Shown here in pieces: positions 6,053-27,175 of a stretch of 64,000 nt of DNA. Source of the stretch: Aliarcobacter lanthieri (GTDB lineage: Bacteria; Campylobacterota; Campylobacteria; Campylobacterales; Arcobacteraceae). Numbering within the stretch: the first letter of the stretch is position 1; each line of letters starts with the position of its first letter. The DNA lies in assembly GCF_013201625.1 (NCBI RefSeq), contig NZ_CP053839.1, forward strand, positions 1,922,001 through 1,986,000, read 5' to 3'. The notes under the pieces are model-generated. The model made no database searches. It was not told where the DNA came from and saw only the letters and a program-made list of their open reading frames with translations. A program made the translations under genes and the position numbers.

Positions 6053-7606
6053 ATGGAAAAATCAAAATTATTTAAACAAAGGCTTTTTGCACTTCATATA
6101 GCTGCTGGGATTACATTTTCGATTATTATGTACCTTGCAGTATATTTTGGAGTATTTGCTATATTCTTACCACAAATTCAAGCTTGGGAAAAACCTTCAC
6201 GATATATAGAAAAAGTTGATATTACAAAAATTGACTACAACTATATGGTAGAAGAAGCTTTAAAAAATCCAGATTTCCCAAAAGATAATATCCTTATAAA
6301 TCTTCCTGGTCGTATTGGAGAAACAGCAGTTAATGTAACAAATAGATTTGTAAAACCTGTTGTTTTTGACCCATTTACAAAAGAGATTTTAGAAGATGAA
6401 GGTAAAGAAATCACAAATCTAGCATCTTTTTTAAATGAACTTCATTACGGACAACCTTTAAAGCTTTTAGGAAGATTAGCATTTGGATTTACAGCAGTTG
6501 GAACTTTGGCATTGGTAATAACGGGACTACTTTTGATTTATTATTTTAAATTTAATTATAAAACAAAAAATCAACAGGGATTATTTTCAACATTACATGT
6601 AAAAATTTTTACTTGGGCTTTCTTACCATTTTTACTTATTACAATAAGTGGAGGTGTTATGAATGTTGGATTAATATCAGCACCTCCAATGGCAAAAATG
6701 CTAACAAAAGGTGAAGCAAAAGCTATAGATGAGCTAGTAGGAAGTACACTTTTCCCTACAAATAAAGCTGTAAAAAAAGAGAATATTTCAGCTTCAATGT
6801 TACCTTTAAATGAACTTTTATTAAAAGCTCAAGAGATAAATCCACAGTTAACATTTAAACAAATAAAACTTTCAAATTGGAATGATATAACTGCACGTGT
6901 TGAATTTTCAGGGTATAACCCTTACAAACCATTTTTAAATGGTGGAATTTTCAATATCCCTTATGTAGCACTAAATGCTCATACAGGAGAGTTACTTGAA
7001 AATAAAAAGGTTTTAGATAATACGGTTCCAGTATTTATAGCAGAAGGATTATTTTTCTTACATTTCTTATTTGGTATTGATATTTTTTCAAGAACTATTA
7101 TAGCTATTTTAATGGGACTTTGCGGAGTTGCTATTGGTTTTGGTGTTATGTTATGGCTTGAGAAAAAAGCAAAAAAAGTTGAAGGTAAAATAACTTTTTA
7201 TCATTGGATGGGTAAATTATCTTTAGCAACAATGGTAGGAGTTATTCCTGCAACTGCTATACTATTTGTATTACAATGGATTTTACCATTTGGTTTAGAA
7301 GATAGAGTTTTATGGCAACAAGGAATATTTTATAATGTTTGGTTATTTACACTATTTTGGTCATTTTATAGAATAAACTCTTATCAAGCTAGTAAAGAGT
7401 TTTTATTTATAGGTGGGATTTTATTTGTATTTGCTTCACTTTTACACTTTATAAAATTTCAAGTTCTTATATCAAATATTTTAGGTGTTGATATTGCTTT
7501 AGCTTTATTTGGAATATTACTTATATTTATAGCAAAAAAACTACCAAAAAGAAGAGAAGATTTTATTCTAGCTAAAATTTTAAACAAAGGAAAAACAGAT
7601 GAATAA
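6053..7606 (+). CDS. PepSY-associated membrane protein, candidate ferric-siderophore reductase
   Basis: A 517-residue inner-membrane protein of the PepSY_TM family. The first helix is at about 10-38 (with RLFALHIAAG), followed by a periplasmic PepSY-like segment. Two helices follow at about 137-165 and 180-206, then a second periplasmic segment (about 210-335), and then helices to the C-terminus. Membrane-proximal histidines (RLFALH, LNELHYG, STLHVK, FFLHFLFG, YHWMGK) fit heme or iron handling. Relatives such as FpvG of Pseudomonas take part in reductive release of iron from pyoverdine in the periplasm; I infer a similar role here. The gene follows the receptor and a DUF3649-like gene and overlaps the next gene by 8 bases. 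AGGA precedes the ATG. Confidence 0.8.
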   Translation: MEKSKLFKQRLFALHIAAGITFSIIMYLAVYFGVFAIFLPQIQAWEKPSRYIEKVDITKIDYNYMVEEALKNPDFPKDNILINLPGRIGETAVNVTNRFVKPVVFDPFTKEILEDEGKEITNLASFLNELHYGQPLKLLGRLAFGFTAVGTLALVITGLLLIYYFKFNYKTKNQQGLFSTLHVKIFTWAFLPFLLITISGGVMNVGLISAPPMAKMLTKGEAKAIDELVGSTLFPTNKAVKKENISASMLPLNELLLKAQEINPQLTFKQIKLSNWNDITARVEFSGYNPYKPFLNGGIFNIPYVALNAHTGELLENKKVLDNTVPVFIAEGLFFLHFLFGIDIFSRTIIAILMGLCGVAIGFGVMLWLEKKAKKVEGKITFYHWMGKLSLATMVGVIPATAILFVLQWILPFGLEDRVLWQQGIFYNVWLFTLFWSFYRINSYQASKEFLFIGGILFVFASLLHFIKFQVLISNILGVDIALALFGILLIFIAKKLPKRREDFILAKILNKGKTDE

Positions 7607-23676: not shown

Positions 23677-24350
23677 CGTCTTTCCTTATTAGGTCTATAA
23701 TATTTTGTCTTACAATTGGACATCTGGAATTTTAAGTCGCAAATTTTACTATGGTTTCCCTTTAAAAATTCTTTAATGACACTTAAATTTTGGTAATTTT
23801 CAGGTTTTGCAAAAGATGGTGCTTCTAAAAGATTATTTTCATAGCTTTCAACTTCCAAAGAATCAGCATTTCCTAAAACACCTTCTACATTTCTAGCAAT
23901 TGCATCTGTCATAACTAAAGATGGTAATTCTCCACCAGTTAATACAAATTCACCTATGCTAAACACTTCATTTGCATATTTTTCAATAACCCTCTCATCG
24001 ATTCCCTCATATCTTCCACTTACAAAAACAATATTTTCTTTATTAGCTAATCTTTTTGCATCATTTTGACGAAACTGCTTTGCTGCAGCTAATGGAAAAA
24101 TAATATAAGCATCTTTATTTTTTCGCCTTATTTCATCAAGACAATCAAAAAGTGGCTGACAGAAAAGAAGCATTCCAGCTCCACCACCTATCATTGTATC
24201 ATCTACTTTTTTATGTTTATTAGTTGTAAAATCTCTTGGATTATAAAACTCATAAGATATAAAACTTGAATCAACTGCTCTTTTTAATATAGAATCTTTA
24301 AAATATGGTTCAATTAAATTTGGGAAAAGTGTTACAAATGTAAATTTCAA
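23673..24350 (-). CDS. trmD: tRNA (guanine-37-N1) methyltransferase
   Basis: 225 residues. SPOUT-class trefoil-knot methyltransferase that uses SAM to make m1G37 in tRNAs, preventing +1 frameshifts. Motifs: [25 protein letters not shown] and [15 protein letters not shown], which build the knot and SAM pocket. The C-terminal region is short. It is coupled to rplS, but the usual upstream partners rpsP and rimM are absent; upstream is a divergent unrelated gene. Confidence 0.96.
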
Positions 24351-24431
24351 AACTTAAAATCCATCCTAAAATTTTGTTTGACATACTACCATAATTAGTT
24401 TTAGTTATTATTAAGCATTAATGATTTAGAC

Positions 24432-24461
24432 TTCTTATAAAATTTATAATAATTATAAGAA
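24432..24461 (+). promoter_or_regulatory. Promoter with operator-like inverted repeat before the cysteine-rich gene
   Basis: A perfect 9-bp inverted repeat TTCTTATAA (24432-24440) and TTATAAGAA (24453-24461) flanks a TATAAT box (24445-24450). The right arm runs into the ribosome binding site. The geometry fits a dimeric repressor covering the -10. It is AT-rich, so chance cannot be excluded. Confidence 0.45.
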
Positions 24462-24471
24462 AAGGTTTTTA

Positions 24472-24834
24472 TTGAAAACATTAAATGGTTTTGGAAAAAA
24501 ATATTTTTCATTGTCATCAATACAAGCTTATAGCACTGCTATAACTCTACACAGTAAAGTAGTGTCTTGTAAAAATCATTTAATAAGTAAATTACAAGTA
24601 TCTTCACAAAATAATGAAGATATAGAAGAACCCCCTCCAACATTATCACAAATATTACAATCTTGTTTTATTCAAAATAATAAACCTTGTCATTGTGATT
24701 GTTTATTTAGAAGAAAAACTGCAATTGCAGTAAGACTTTTTAAATATATTCCTAGATGTCCATTCTATTGTACATTTTTTGCTTTTAGAAGAACTGGTGT
24801 TCATCCTCCAAAATTCATTATTAACTATATTTAA
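24472..24834 (+). CDS. Cysteine-rich small protein of unknown function
   Basis: 120 residues from a TTG start with AAAAGG seven bases upstream. There are seven cysteines: C33, C65, C73, C75, C77, C96 and C100. They include a dense PCHCDC cluster and a later CPFYC pair, so metal or cluster binding is conceivable. There is no signal peptide or clear membrane helix. An arginine-rich segment (LFRRKTAIAVRLFKY) is basic. No family is recognised. An open frame of this length is unlikely by chance in such AT-rich DNA. It lies between divergent trmD and metE, 76 bases ahead of metE in the same direction. Confidence 0.6.
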   Translation: MKTLNGFGKKYFSLSSIQAYSTAITLHSKVVSCKNHLISKLQVSSQNNEDIEEPPPTLSQILQSCFIQNNKPCHCDCLFRRKTAIAVRLFKYIPRCPFYCTFFAFRRTGVHPPKFIINYI

Positions 24835-24910
24835 AAATTAAATATTTTCAAGTCTTTTGTTATCTACATTTTAGTAGAGAATTGAATATAAAGTTAATTA
24901 AGGATTAATT

Positions 24911-27175
24911 ATGTCAAAAAATTATGTAATAGGATTTCCAAGAATTGGAGAAAAAAGAGAGTTAAAAAAGGTTTTAGAGCAATATTGGGCAAAACAAACT
25001 GATTTTAATGAAGTAAAATATGTAGCAAGCCAATTGAGAAAAAGACATTGGACTTATCAAAAAGAAGCAAAAATAAATTTTATTGCTTCAAATGATTTTT
25101 CATATTATGATAATATGTTAGATACTTCTATTTTACTAGGTGCAATTCCTCAAAGATTTCAACATCTAAAAGATGAAGAATTATATTTTGCAATGGCTAG
25201 AGGAAATCAAGATTGTGTTGCAATGGAAATGACAAAATGGTTTAATACAAACTATCACTATATCGTTCCAGAAATTTCAAAAGATACAAAGTTTTCTTTA
25301 AACTCTAAAAAAGTAATTGAAGAATATAAAGAAGCAAAAGAATTAGAGATAAATACAAAAATAAATCTTATTGGACCAATCACTTATTTAGGTTTATCAA
25401 AAAGTATTGACAATAGTGATATTTTTGCTCATATTAATAGTGTTGTTGAAGTTTATAAACAACTATTAAATGAAATTTCTAAACTTGATGATGAAGTTGT
25501 TGTAGAATTTGCAGAACCACTTTTTGTTAAAGATTTAGATACAAAAGTTTTATCTTTATTAAAACCTGTTTATGATGCATTAGCATCTGTTTCTTCAAAT
25601 ATCAAAGTTGTTGTAACAACATTTTTTGAACACTCAAATGAAGCAACAAAAATTTTAGTAAATACTCCAATTTGGGCATTAGGTTTGGATTTTATTCATG
25701 GAAGAAAAAATCTTGAAGCTTTAGAAGTTATAAAAAATTTAAATAAAATTTTAATAGCTGGAGTTATTGATGGAAGAAATATTTGGAAAAGTAATTTTGA
25801 AGATAAATTAAATTTATTAAATGAGATATCAAAAACTATTTCAAAAGAAAATATTATAGTAGGAACTTCTTGCTCACTTTTACATGTACCTTTTACTTTA
25901 AACTATGAAGAAAAATTAGATAATGAAATAAAATCTTGGTTAGCATTTGCAACTGAGAAATTAAAAGAATTATCTCTTGTATCAAAACAATTTTTTGGTT
26001 CAAAACTATCATTAGAGGATATTGCAAATATTGAGAAAAATGCAAAAGATAATAAAGAAAGAAAAGTATCTACAAAAATTCACAATGCAATAGTTCAAGA
26101 TGAAATTAAAAATTTAAAAGTATTTGAAAGAGTTGATAAATTCCAAGATAGAATAAAAGTTCAAAGAGAATTTTTTGGATATGATGCACTTACAACTACA
26201 ACAATTGGATCATTCCCTCAAACACCTGAAATTAGAGAAAATAGAAAACAATATAAAGCAAATGCCATCACAAAAGAGCAATATGAAGCAGAAATCAAAA
26301 AATATATTGATGATTGCGTAGCTTTCCAAGATGAAATTGGACTTGATGTATTAGTTCATGGTGAGCCAGAAAGAAATGATATGGTTGAATACTTTGGTGA
26401 ATTAATGAATGGTTTTGCATTTACTCAAAATGCTTGGGTTCAATCTTATGGAAGTAGATGTGTAAAACCACCTTTAATTTTTGGTGATGTTTCAAGACCA
26501 AATCCAATGACTGTTGAATGGATAAAATATGCTCAAAGTAAAACTAAAAAAGTTATGAAAGGTATGTTAACAGGTCCTGTTACAATTCTTAACTGGTCAT
26601 TTGTAAGAGATGATATTCCAAGAAATGAAGTAACAAAACAAATTGCACTTGCAATTAATAACGAAGTTGATGATTTACAAAATGCTGGAATTAAAATGAT
26701 TCAAGTTGATGAAGCAGCATTTAAAGAAGGTTATCCTTTAAGAGCTGAAAATATTAAAGCTTATGAAAATTGGGCAGTTGAAAACTTCAGATTAAGTGTA
26801 AGTTGTGCAAAAGCTGATACTCAAATTCATACACACATGTGTTATAGTGAATTCAATGATATTATTAAAACTATTGAAGCAATGGATGCTGATGTTATTT
26901 CTATTGAAACAGCAAGAAGTGGAAATAGACTTTTAAGAATTTTCAAAGAAGTAGCATATAAACAAGAAATCGGACCTGGAATTTATGATATTCATAGCCC
27001 AAGAGTTCCAAGTGTAGATGAAATGGTAGCTCAAATCAAAGCTTTAATTGAAGTTTTACCAAAAGAGCAATTATGGATAAACCCTGATTGTGGATTAAAA
27101 ACTAGAAAATGGCCTGAAGTAAAACAAAGTTTAATCAACTTAGTTGAAGCAGTAAAAATAGTGAAAAATAGCTAA
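24911..27175 (+). CDS. metE: Cobalamin-independent methionine synthase
   Basis: 754 residues, full length, with the usual two barrels. It transfers a methyl group from 5-methyltetrahydropteroyl-polyglutamate to homocysteine. Zinc ligands are visible: H642 and C644 in THMC, E666 in SIETARSGN and C727 in NPDCGLKTR. The N-terminal folate-binding part begins IGFPRIGEKRELK, and TTTIGSFPQTPEIR opens the second barrel. TAAGGA precedes the ATG. The gene may be co-transcribed with the cysteine-rich gene upstream. A bidirectional terminator follows. Confidence 0.97.
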   Translation: MSKNYVIGFPRIGEKRELKKVLEQYWAKQTDFNEVKYVASQLRKRHWTYQKEAKINFIASNDFSYYDNMLDTSILLGAIPQRFQHLKDEELYFAMARGNQDCVAMEMTKWFNTNYHYIVPEISKDTKFSLNSKKVIEEYKEAKELEINTKINLIGPITYLGLSKSIDNSDIFAHINSVVEVYKQLLNEISKLDDEVVVEFAEPLFVKDLDTKVLSLLKPVYDALASVSSNIKVVVTTFFEHSNEATKILVNTPIWALGLDFIHGRKNLEALEVIKNLNKILIAGVIDGRNIWKSNFEDKLNLLNEISKTISKENIIVGTSCSLLHVPFTLNYEEKLDNEIKSWLAFATEKLKELSLVSKQFFGSKLSLEDIANIEKNAKDNKERKVSTKIHNAIVQDEIKNLKVFERVDKFQDRIKVQREFFGYDALTTTTIGSFPQTPEIRENRKQYKANAITKEQYEAEIKKYIDDCVAFQDEIGLDVLVHGEPERNDMVEYFGELMNGFAFTQNAWVQSYGSRCVKPPLIFGDVSRPNPMTVEWIKYAQSKTKKVMKGMLTGPVTILNWSFVRDDIPRNEVTKQIALAINNEVDDLQNAGIKMIQVDEAAFKEGYPLRAENIKAYENWAVENFRLSVSCAKADTQIHTHMCYSEFNDIIKTIEAMDADVISIETARSGNRLLRIFKEVAYKQEIGPGIYDIHSPRVPSVDEMVAQIKALIEVLPKEQLWINPDCGLKTRKWPEVKQSLINLVEAVKIVKNS

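Follow-up and report, generated by a model that had tools for sequence, protein, structure and literature searches.

What is the role of a short, cysteine-rich reading frame placed just in front of metE? In the window (the whole 64-kb stretch of Aliarcobacter lanthieri DNA analysed here), an ORF of 120 codons with seven cysteines in its product ends 76 nt ahead of the start of metE at position 24911, on the same strand. This arrangement was described correctly in the original prediction, which went on to suggest that a palindrome in front of the ORF is a repressor site and that the product is a metal- or redox-sensing protein linked to methionine synthesis. We compared the locus with its counterparts across the Campylobacterota, and the comparison led to a different reading of the ORF.

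The reading frame ahead of metE

The features of the locus are as follows.

24390-24434, + strand: conserved upstream block with TATTAT (24406-24411) and ATTAAG (24410-24415), from an alignment of 30 loci
24432-24461, no strand assigned: 9-bp inverted repeat around TATAAT (24445-24450), not conserved
24460-24465, + strand: AAAAGG, probable Shine-Dalgarno sequence of the leader ORF, 6 nt ahead of the TTG
24472-24834, + strand: leader ORF, 120 codons, TTG start
24487-24528, + strand: N-terminal module GFGKKYFSLSSIQA, residues 6-19, from sequence comparison with relatives
24631-24639, + strand: first Pro-Pro-Pro, residues 54-56, candidate first pause site
24688-24702, + strand: CHCDC, residues 73-77, opening the C-terminal module 39 residues ahead of the last Pro-Pro
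24778-24810, + strand: FAFRRTGVHPP, residues 103-113, putative arrest-like terminal motif, after which conservation ends
24858-24882, + strand: hairpin TGTTATCTAC...GTAGAGAAT in the leader-metE gap, from a sequence pattern
24900-24904, + strand: AAGGA, probable Shine-Dalgarno sequence of metE
24911-27175, + strand: gene probably controlled, which we take to be metE from its own sequence

The product of the ORF matched no family in Pfam or NCBIfam at E-values up to 10, in agreement with the original prediction that it belongs to no recognised family. An Rfam search of positions 24300-25000 gave a single chance snoRNA match (E 0.84). The ORF contains no internal Met codon, and the run of codons for the regulated residue that marks a Met-type attenuator was not found.

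The homologue search and dN/dS comparison proposed with the original prediction both supported the frame. Matches to the leader ORF were found in 42 of 60 related genomes, and TTG was the start codon in 30 of the 31 tabulated leader sequences. Because of these matches, the use of varying codons at invariant residues and a median dN/dS of 0.295 (369 pairs), positions 24472-24834 are a genuine conserved coding sequence, far beyond chance. The idea of an RNA gene mistaken for a protein was rejected, since different codons are used at the invariant residues. Selection is uneven along the ORF, with a median pN/pS of 0.29 in the N-terminal region (columns 28-64 of the leader alignment), 0.71 in the middle, 0.17 in the C-terminal region and 0.82 past the last Pro-Pro.

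The association with metE also held. In 40 of 41 loci, the leader precedes metE in the same orientation, with gaps of 36-236 nt; the 41st locus stops at a contig end. In the phylum sample, which partly overlaps with these 41 loci, at least 83 genomes have a leader match ahead of metE with a match-to-match gap of 42-461 nt; this number counts the leader rows listed among 112 typed metE rows, which mostly omit genomes without a leader match. The ORF thus has the arrangement of a cis leader, being a conserved short ORF directly 5' of a gene on the same strand.

The palindrome fared differently. The exact 9-bp repeat is present as described, with TTCTTATAA at 24432-24440 and TTATAAGAA at 24453-24461 separated by a 12-nt spacer, and it surrounds the TATAAT. 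However, it is not special. The AT-rich 64-kb window contains 75 perfect 9-bp inverted repeats with loops of 0-20 nt (22-38 in five first-order resamples), and the 41 near-matches to the palindrome in the whole genome do not exceed the 49 of a reversed-pattern control. No perfect 9-bp repeat was present in the last 45 nt ahead of the start codon in any of 29 relatives (28 from the same genus, one from the same family); the best repeats were 8 bp in one relative and 7 bp in another, and the others had 6 bp or none. Lack of conservation of the repeat is one part of what had been named in advance as evidence against the prediction, and a repressor operator at this palindrome was rejected as neither conserved nor rare. 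The block at 24390-24434, in which ATTAAG is present in all 30 aligned rows, is a likelier promoter or 5' UTR element than the palindrome, and probably represents the true promoter or an operator.

The hairpin pattern in the leader-metE gap occurs once in this genome, beside metE, and so it is not a dispersed repeat. Predicted gap hairpins of at least two versions were seen in part of the relatives (L002-L005, L016, L018 and L020-L030), and relatives with gaps of 44-62 nt have too little space for the long version. Such hairpins could serve as an expression platform. An RNAalifold consensus of nine of these gap sequences gave no structure.

The leader family and cobalamin-linked genes

A profile built from the leader (A1) was searched against 298 Campylobacterota genomes with E-values up to 0.01. 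It matched 141 of them, some of which had second matches elsewhere. We opened 47 loci (L047-L093) of our own choice from the list of matches. All 47 belonged to four classes: 12 had the leader before metE, 17 had a separate leader before a btuB-like receptor, 14 were fused and 4 were cbiM operons. In the fused class, the leader motif is the N-terminus of the btuB-like TonB receptor itself. CbiM was confirmed by PF01891 in L048 and L230, and the L048 operon also encodes CbiK-like and CobI-like proteins, both scoring under the NCBIfam cut-offs. For some downstream genes the name was assigned by eye, namely the receptor of L063 and the CbiM of L049, L056 and L091. Fused receptors, which look as if a leader had been joined to a receptor, were seen in L042 (548-2464), L047, L069-L076, L078, L079, L089 and L092.

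The leaders are built of two modules and carry one or both. Module 1, close to the start, has the motif GFxxxYFxLxxIxA, and module 2 is CxCxC. The N-terminal module of the window leader is common to the btuB-like and cbiM leaders and to the N-terminus of the fused receptors. A second search used a DNA pattern for GFxxxYF[ST]LAAI on public genome contigs, partly from the same genomes, and gave at least 121 matches in at least 119 stretches. These comprised at least 56 fused receptors, 43 leaders with a receptor, 11 leaders with metE and 3 leaders with a porin-like protein; eight were left unclassified (at least five cut by the contig, two near a contig end and one without a reference match). 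Going by their names, we take 79 of the 80 titles among the pattern matches listed to be Campylobacterota. The remaining title, 'Proteobacteria CTSoil_042', has a receptor N-terminus almost identical to those of the Sulfurospirillum type.

The same form of leader precedes the porin-like protein in L147 (as one of two leaders), L163 and L196. In L147 this protein, named by eye, has 418 aa, and the locus also contains a receptor and a CbiK-like frame. The porin-like protein is a candidate outer-membrane protein for B12 uptake. In L222, past position 7487, a leader is followed by a short reading frame that resembles a broken piece of a BtuC/FecCD-type permease. The family also points to candidate B12 genes, including that of the porin-like protein, whose function is not assigned.

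The identity of the btuB-like receptors as B12 receptors is partly shown by profile scores and neighbouring genes. Among four receptors scored, none exceeded the cut-off of the TonB-B12 model. This model came first for the L042 receptor (E 3.4e-61; 207.6 bits, far under the cut-off of 599.7) and scored close behind the leading model in L050 and L055; a heme-type model came first in L050 and L051, and a siderophore model in L055. The binding protein of L060 scored better with IsdE than with BtuF, both under the cut-off. BtuF-like ORFs were present in 23 of 121 pattern loci, the matches numbering at least 121. In favour of B12 receptors, a corrinoid adenosyltransferase gene (PF02572, E 8.8e-56) adjoins the L075 receptor, and the receptors of L047, L074, L076 and L079 have similar frames ahead of them.

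B12-dependent regulation of metE, btuB and the cobalamin genes is a textbook example of a riboswitch. In the 298 Campylobacterota genomes, however, no match to RF00174 was found, against 8 of 14 control genomes; searches of more than 40 genomes apply tighter filters, under which weak matches are lost. For RF01482 and RF01689, 150 genomes each yielded no match over the cut-off, and none of the three models matched positions 24300-25000 of the window. The lone sub-threshold match to RF01482 or RF01689 in the 150 genomes was to RF01689 (AdoCbl-II) in genome G066, at L230:1275-1364, with 34.5 bits against a cut-off of 36.5 (E 1.8e-5 in a 5-kb search). It lies directly ahead of cbiM at L230:1410, the place held by the leader ORF in L048, L049, L056 and L091. 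Among the matches listed, G066 has a single A1 match, at metE. A modular conserved ORF stands before, or is fused to, metE, btuB-like genes and cbiM in a phylum sample without detectable RF00174. The family is very probably linked to B12, and its presence at these genes suggests how a phylum without RF00174 matches may handle B12 control.

A small protein made from the operon and acting in trans, as a metal- or B12-binding regulator or as a partner of MetE, would account for the protein-level selection, for the CxCxC clusters that look like metal ligands and for the copy beside every target gene. It would also cover the metal or redox idea. However, some genomes carry diverged copies, each beside its own gene, leaders vary in length between roughly 50 and 120 residues, some lacking entire modules, and the N-terminus is fused to the receptor in one class. 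The predicted structure is also poor (pLDDT 58.6, pTM 0.30, 15 sequences) and shows no confident fold, which fits, without proving, an unfolded leader. We consider a trans-acting protein unlikely. The connection drawn in the original prediction to metE and methionine synthesis holds, but its idea of metal or redox sensing is not supported: the Cys cluster is dispensable, being absent from short btuB-like and cbiM leaders and from some metE leaders of genome family f10, and the targets extend to btuB-like genes and cbiM. A metal or thiol step is possible for the CxCxC module.

Leader modules, MetH and the putative signal

The spacing of the modules is regular in many leaders. After removal of sequences under 38 residues and near-duplicates (>90% identical), and with the motif Gly as position 1, 36 of the 38 short leaders have their first Pro-Pro at 43-45; of the two exceptions, one is a cut sequence and one a broken receptor frame. 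The spacing also holds for a 52-residue receptor leader of the window's own family, and the Pro-Pro-Pro of the window leader is at position 49. In long leaders, the first Pro-Pro is at 43-50 in 43 of 72 and only at 98-107 in 27, with none in two, and just 12 of 57 fused receptors have a Pro-Pro at 43-53. Because the Pro-Pro comes late in those 27 long leaders and only 12 receptors are so spaced, the motif in fused receptors and in long leaders without an early Pro-Pro may be mainly a signal peptide. In 55 of 62 long leaders, CxC and the next Pro-Pro more than 20 residues on are 36 or 39 residues apart; the distance is 34 in four and 22-23 in three, and the remainder of the 72 have no CxC pattern or no later Pro-Pro. 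The last Pro-Pro is followed by no more than 19 residues in 35 of the 38 short leaders and in 64 of the 72 long ones. A segment about 35-50 residues from the peptidyl-transferase centre lies just beyond the ribosome tunnel. As in arrest peptides, a conserved short motif is followed by a variable tail, with a median pN/pS of 0.17 in the C-terminal module and 0.82 in the tail. Among the leaders listed, most terminal motifs are HPP, APP, SPP or DPP and not RAPP or RAGP.

A further alternative is a secretion monitor of the SecM and VemP kind, with the motif as export signal, the Pro-Pro as arrest site and the pull of export as release. The same N-terminal motif is an apparent signal peptide in the fused receptors, and near the C-terminus conservation stops abruptly after a Pro-Pro. 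However, the targets are metE and cobalamin-linked genes and not sec or yidC, many metE leaders match through the C-terminal module alone, and the leader stretch is only weakly hydrophobic by eye. A secretion monitor is very unlikely.

If the peptide were incidental, a novel B12 aptamer in or around the ORF could control these genes. The B12-linked gene set, the near absence of known B12 riboswitch families from the samples and the gap hairpins in part of the relatives are all consistent with such an RNA. The RNA inside the ORF is also slightly more stable than synonymous shuffles, most of all in the metE set (z of -1.6 for short, -2.4 for metE and -1.7 for long btuB-type leaders). However, invariant residues are encoded by varying codons, and the consensus energy for 28 short leaders is only -0.20 kcal/mol (-3.1 for metE and -3.9 for long btuB-type leaders). 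Among short leaders, 32 of 36 have a -10-like site no more than 45 nt from the start (10 in a control region), as do 50 of 72 long ones (24 in the control region); this leaves little room for an aptamer upstream, and gaps to metE can be as small as 36 nt. An RNA element is quite improbable. A riboswitch embedded in the ORF was rejected as a candidate, with no consensus fold in the short leaders and a weak signal in the other two sets.

MetH was found in 113 of the 298 genomes. A family member, as leader or fused receptor, is present in 85 of 86 genomes with both metE and metH, 37 of 115 with metE only, 19 of 27 with metH only and none of 70 with neither. The 37 metE-only genomes consist of 35 from genome family f10, G244, in which the N-terminal motif is degraded, and G315, whose metE leader is without the N-terminal motif and which has no second match among those listed. 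All 35 matching f10 genomes lack metH, and the matches listed for them (25 + 10) cover the C-terminal module only. This match is beside metE in 33 of the 35, and the other two are on separate contigs. The C-terminal module therefore cannot be a pure B12 switch. Such metE leaders with the C-terminal part only, from genomes without metH, were seen in L053, L054, L098-L100 and the f10/g37 genomes; the five such leaders that were read terminate in SGCHPP and a few further residues.

In at least 17 metH genomes, the metE leader match begins at position 36 or later, in the C-terminal part, and therefore the N-terminal module is not needed there. Such leaders were judged by match start, and the sequences were read for G051, G044, G227, G290, G260 and G301. 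The proposal that the N-terminal module is the sole B12 module of metE is weakened by these genomes. In genome family f13 (14 genomes examined), the main match is the receptor form, in frames of 652-706 aa, and not a metE leader.

The retention of C-terminal-module leaders at metE in the f10 genomes without metH is also what a signal other than B12 would predict. With methionine/SAM or homocysteine as the signal, a shortage of methionine would raise metE, B12 uptake and B12 synthesis alike; this alternative overlaps with our preferred explanation, as control could still run through the nascent peptide. However, in the 47 loci opened and the at least 113 classified pattern matches, no leader was seen at another methionine gene, 78 of the 115 genomes with metE but not metH have no family match, a B12 riboswitch-like element replaces the leader once, and internal Met codons are absent from the window leader. 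We regard a methionine-type signal as improbable.

On balance, we favour the explanation that a family of nascent-peptide leaders acting in cis replaces cobalamin riboswitches in the Campylobacterota, and that the ORF at 24472-24834 is its member at metE. With similar, moderate confidence, we suggest that control acts through the nascent peptide. During translation of the leader, the ribosome would slow at the Pro-Pro when the sensor segment (GFxxxYFxLxxIxA or CxCxC) is just clear of the exit tunnel. Whether the ribosome then proceeds or stays would be decided by cobalamin or a cobalamin-bound factor, and the fate of the ribosome would set downstream expression, so that metE would be switched off once MetH can be supplied with B12. 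The stalled state might reach metE through RNA structure, Rho or re-initiation. Whether B12 itself is the ligand is close to an even question, to which we lean slightly towards no. More tentative still is the proposal that the nascent peptide is the B12 sensor, with cobalamin or a cobalamin-bound factor binding GFxxxYFxLxxIxA and/or CxCxC at the tunnel exit. If the peptide does sense, a nascent chain would read a large cofactor; peptide sensing would then have taken the place of the B12 riboswitch throughout the phylum, and in some lineages the sensor would have become fused into the N-terminus of the B12 receptor itself. Among the open-licence PMC papers listed in our literature searches, none reports this leader family; the closest are those on the Mycobacterium tuberculosis metE uORF and on Campylobacter leader peptides.

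Comparison with known systems

Cobalamin riboswitches target metE, btuB and cobalamin or cobalt genes. The leader family resembles the riboswitches of RF00174, RF01482 and RF01689 in this target set and in its cis position before the gene. It differs in being a translated ORF under peptide-level selection, with no Rfam match at the leader beyond the chance snoRNA one and, in the phylum samples, no match to these three models over the cut-off.

A copper-linked upstream ORF reportedly carries a Cys motif. This upstream ORF is likewise tied to a metal, but the genes are different and the window protein has no Pfam match (PMC9426467). In Mycobacterium tuberculosis, a uORF before metE modulates MetE expression while B12 is sensed by riboswitch RNA (PMC11260477). 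The position before metE is shared; here, in contrast, conservation is at the level of the peptide sequence, and no riboswitch was seen. The leader peptides LeuL, TrpL and MetL, described in Campylobacter together with leaderless mRNAs (PMC11955535), are leader ORFs of the same phylum. They occur mainly in Campylobacter, 'metE' is absent from the main text of that paper, and the window leader differs in having no internal Met codon.

The RAPP/RAGP-like arrest peptides are encoded by upstream ORFs and have a short conserved motif (PMC10951233, PMC10951299 and PMC10987492). With the RAPP type, the leader shares the upstream ORF, the conserved short motif with a Pro-Pro end and the variable tail. 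The leader motif, however, is mostly [IVLT][SAH]PP. Because it has no Arg as in the RAPP type, we do not class the leader as an arrest peptide; by analogy, its terminal motif may nevertheless act like one, with a putative arrest in the leader. The targets also differ, the RAPP type acting on protein localisation and the leader on B12-linked genes.
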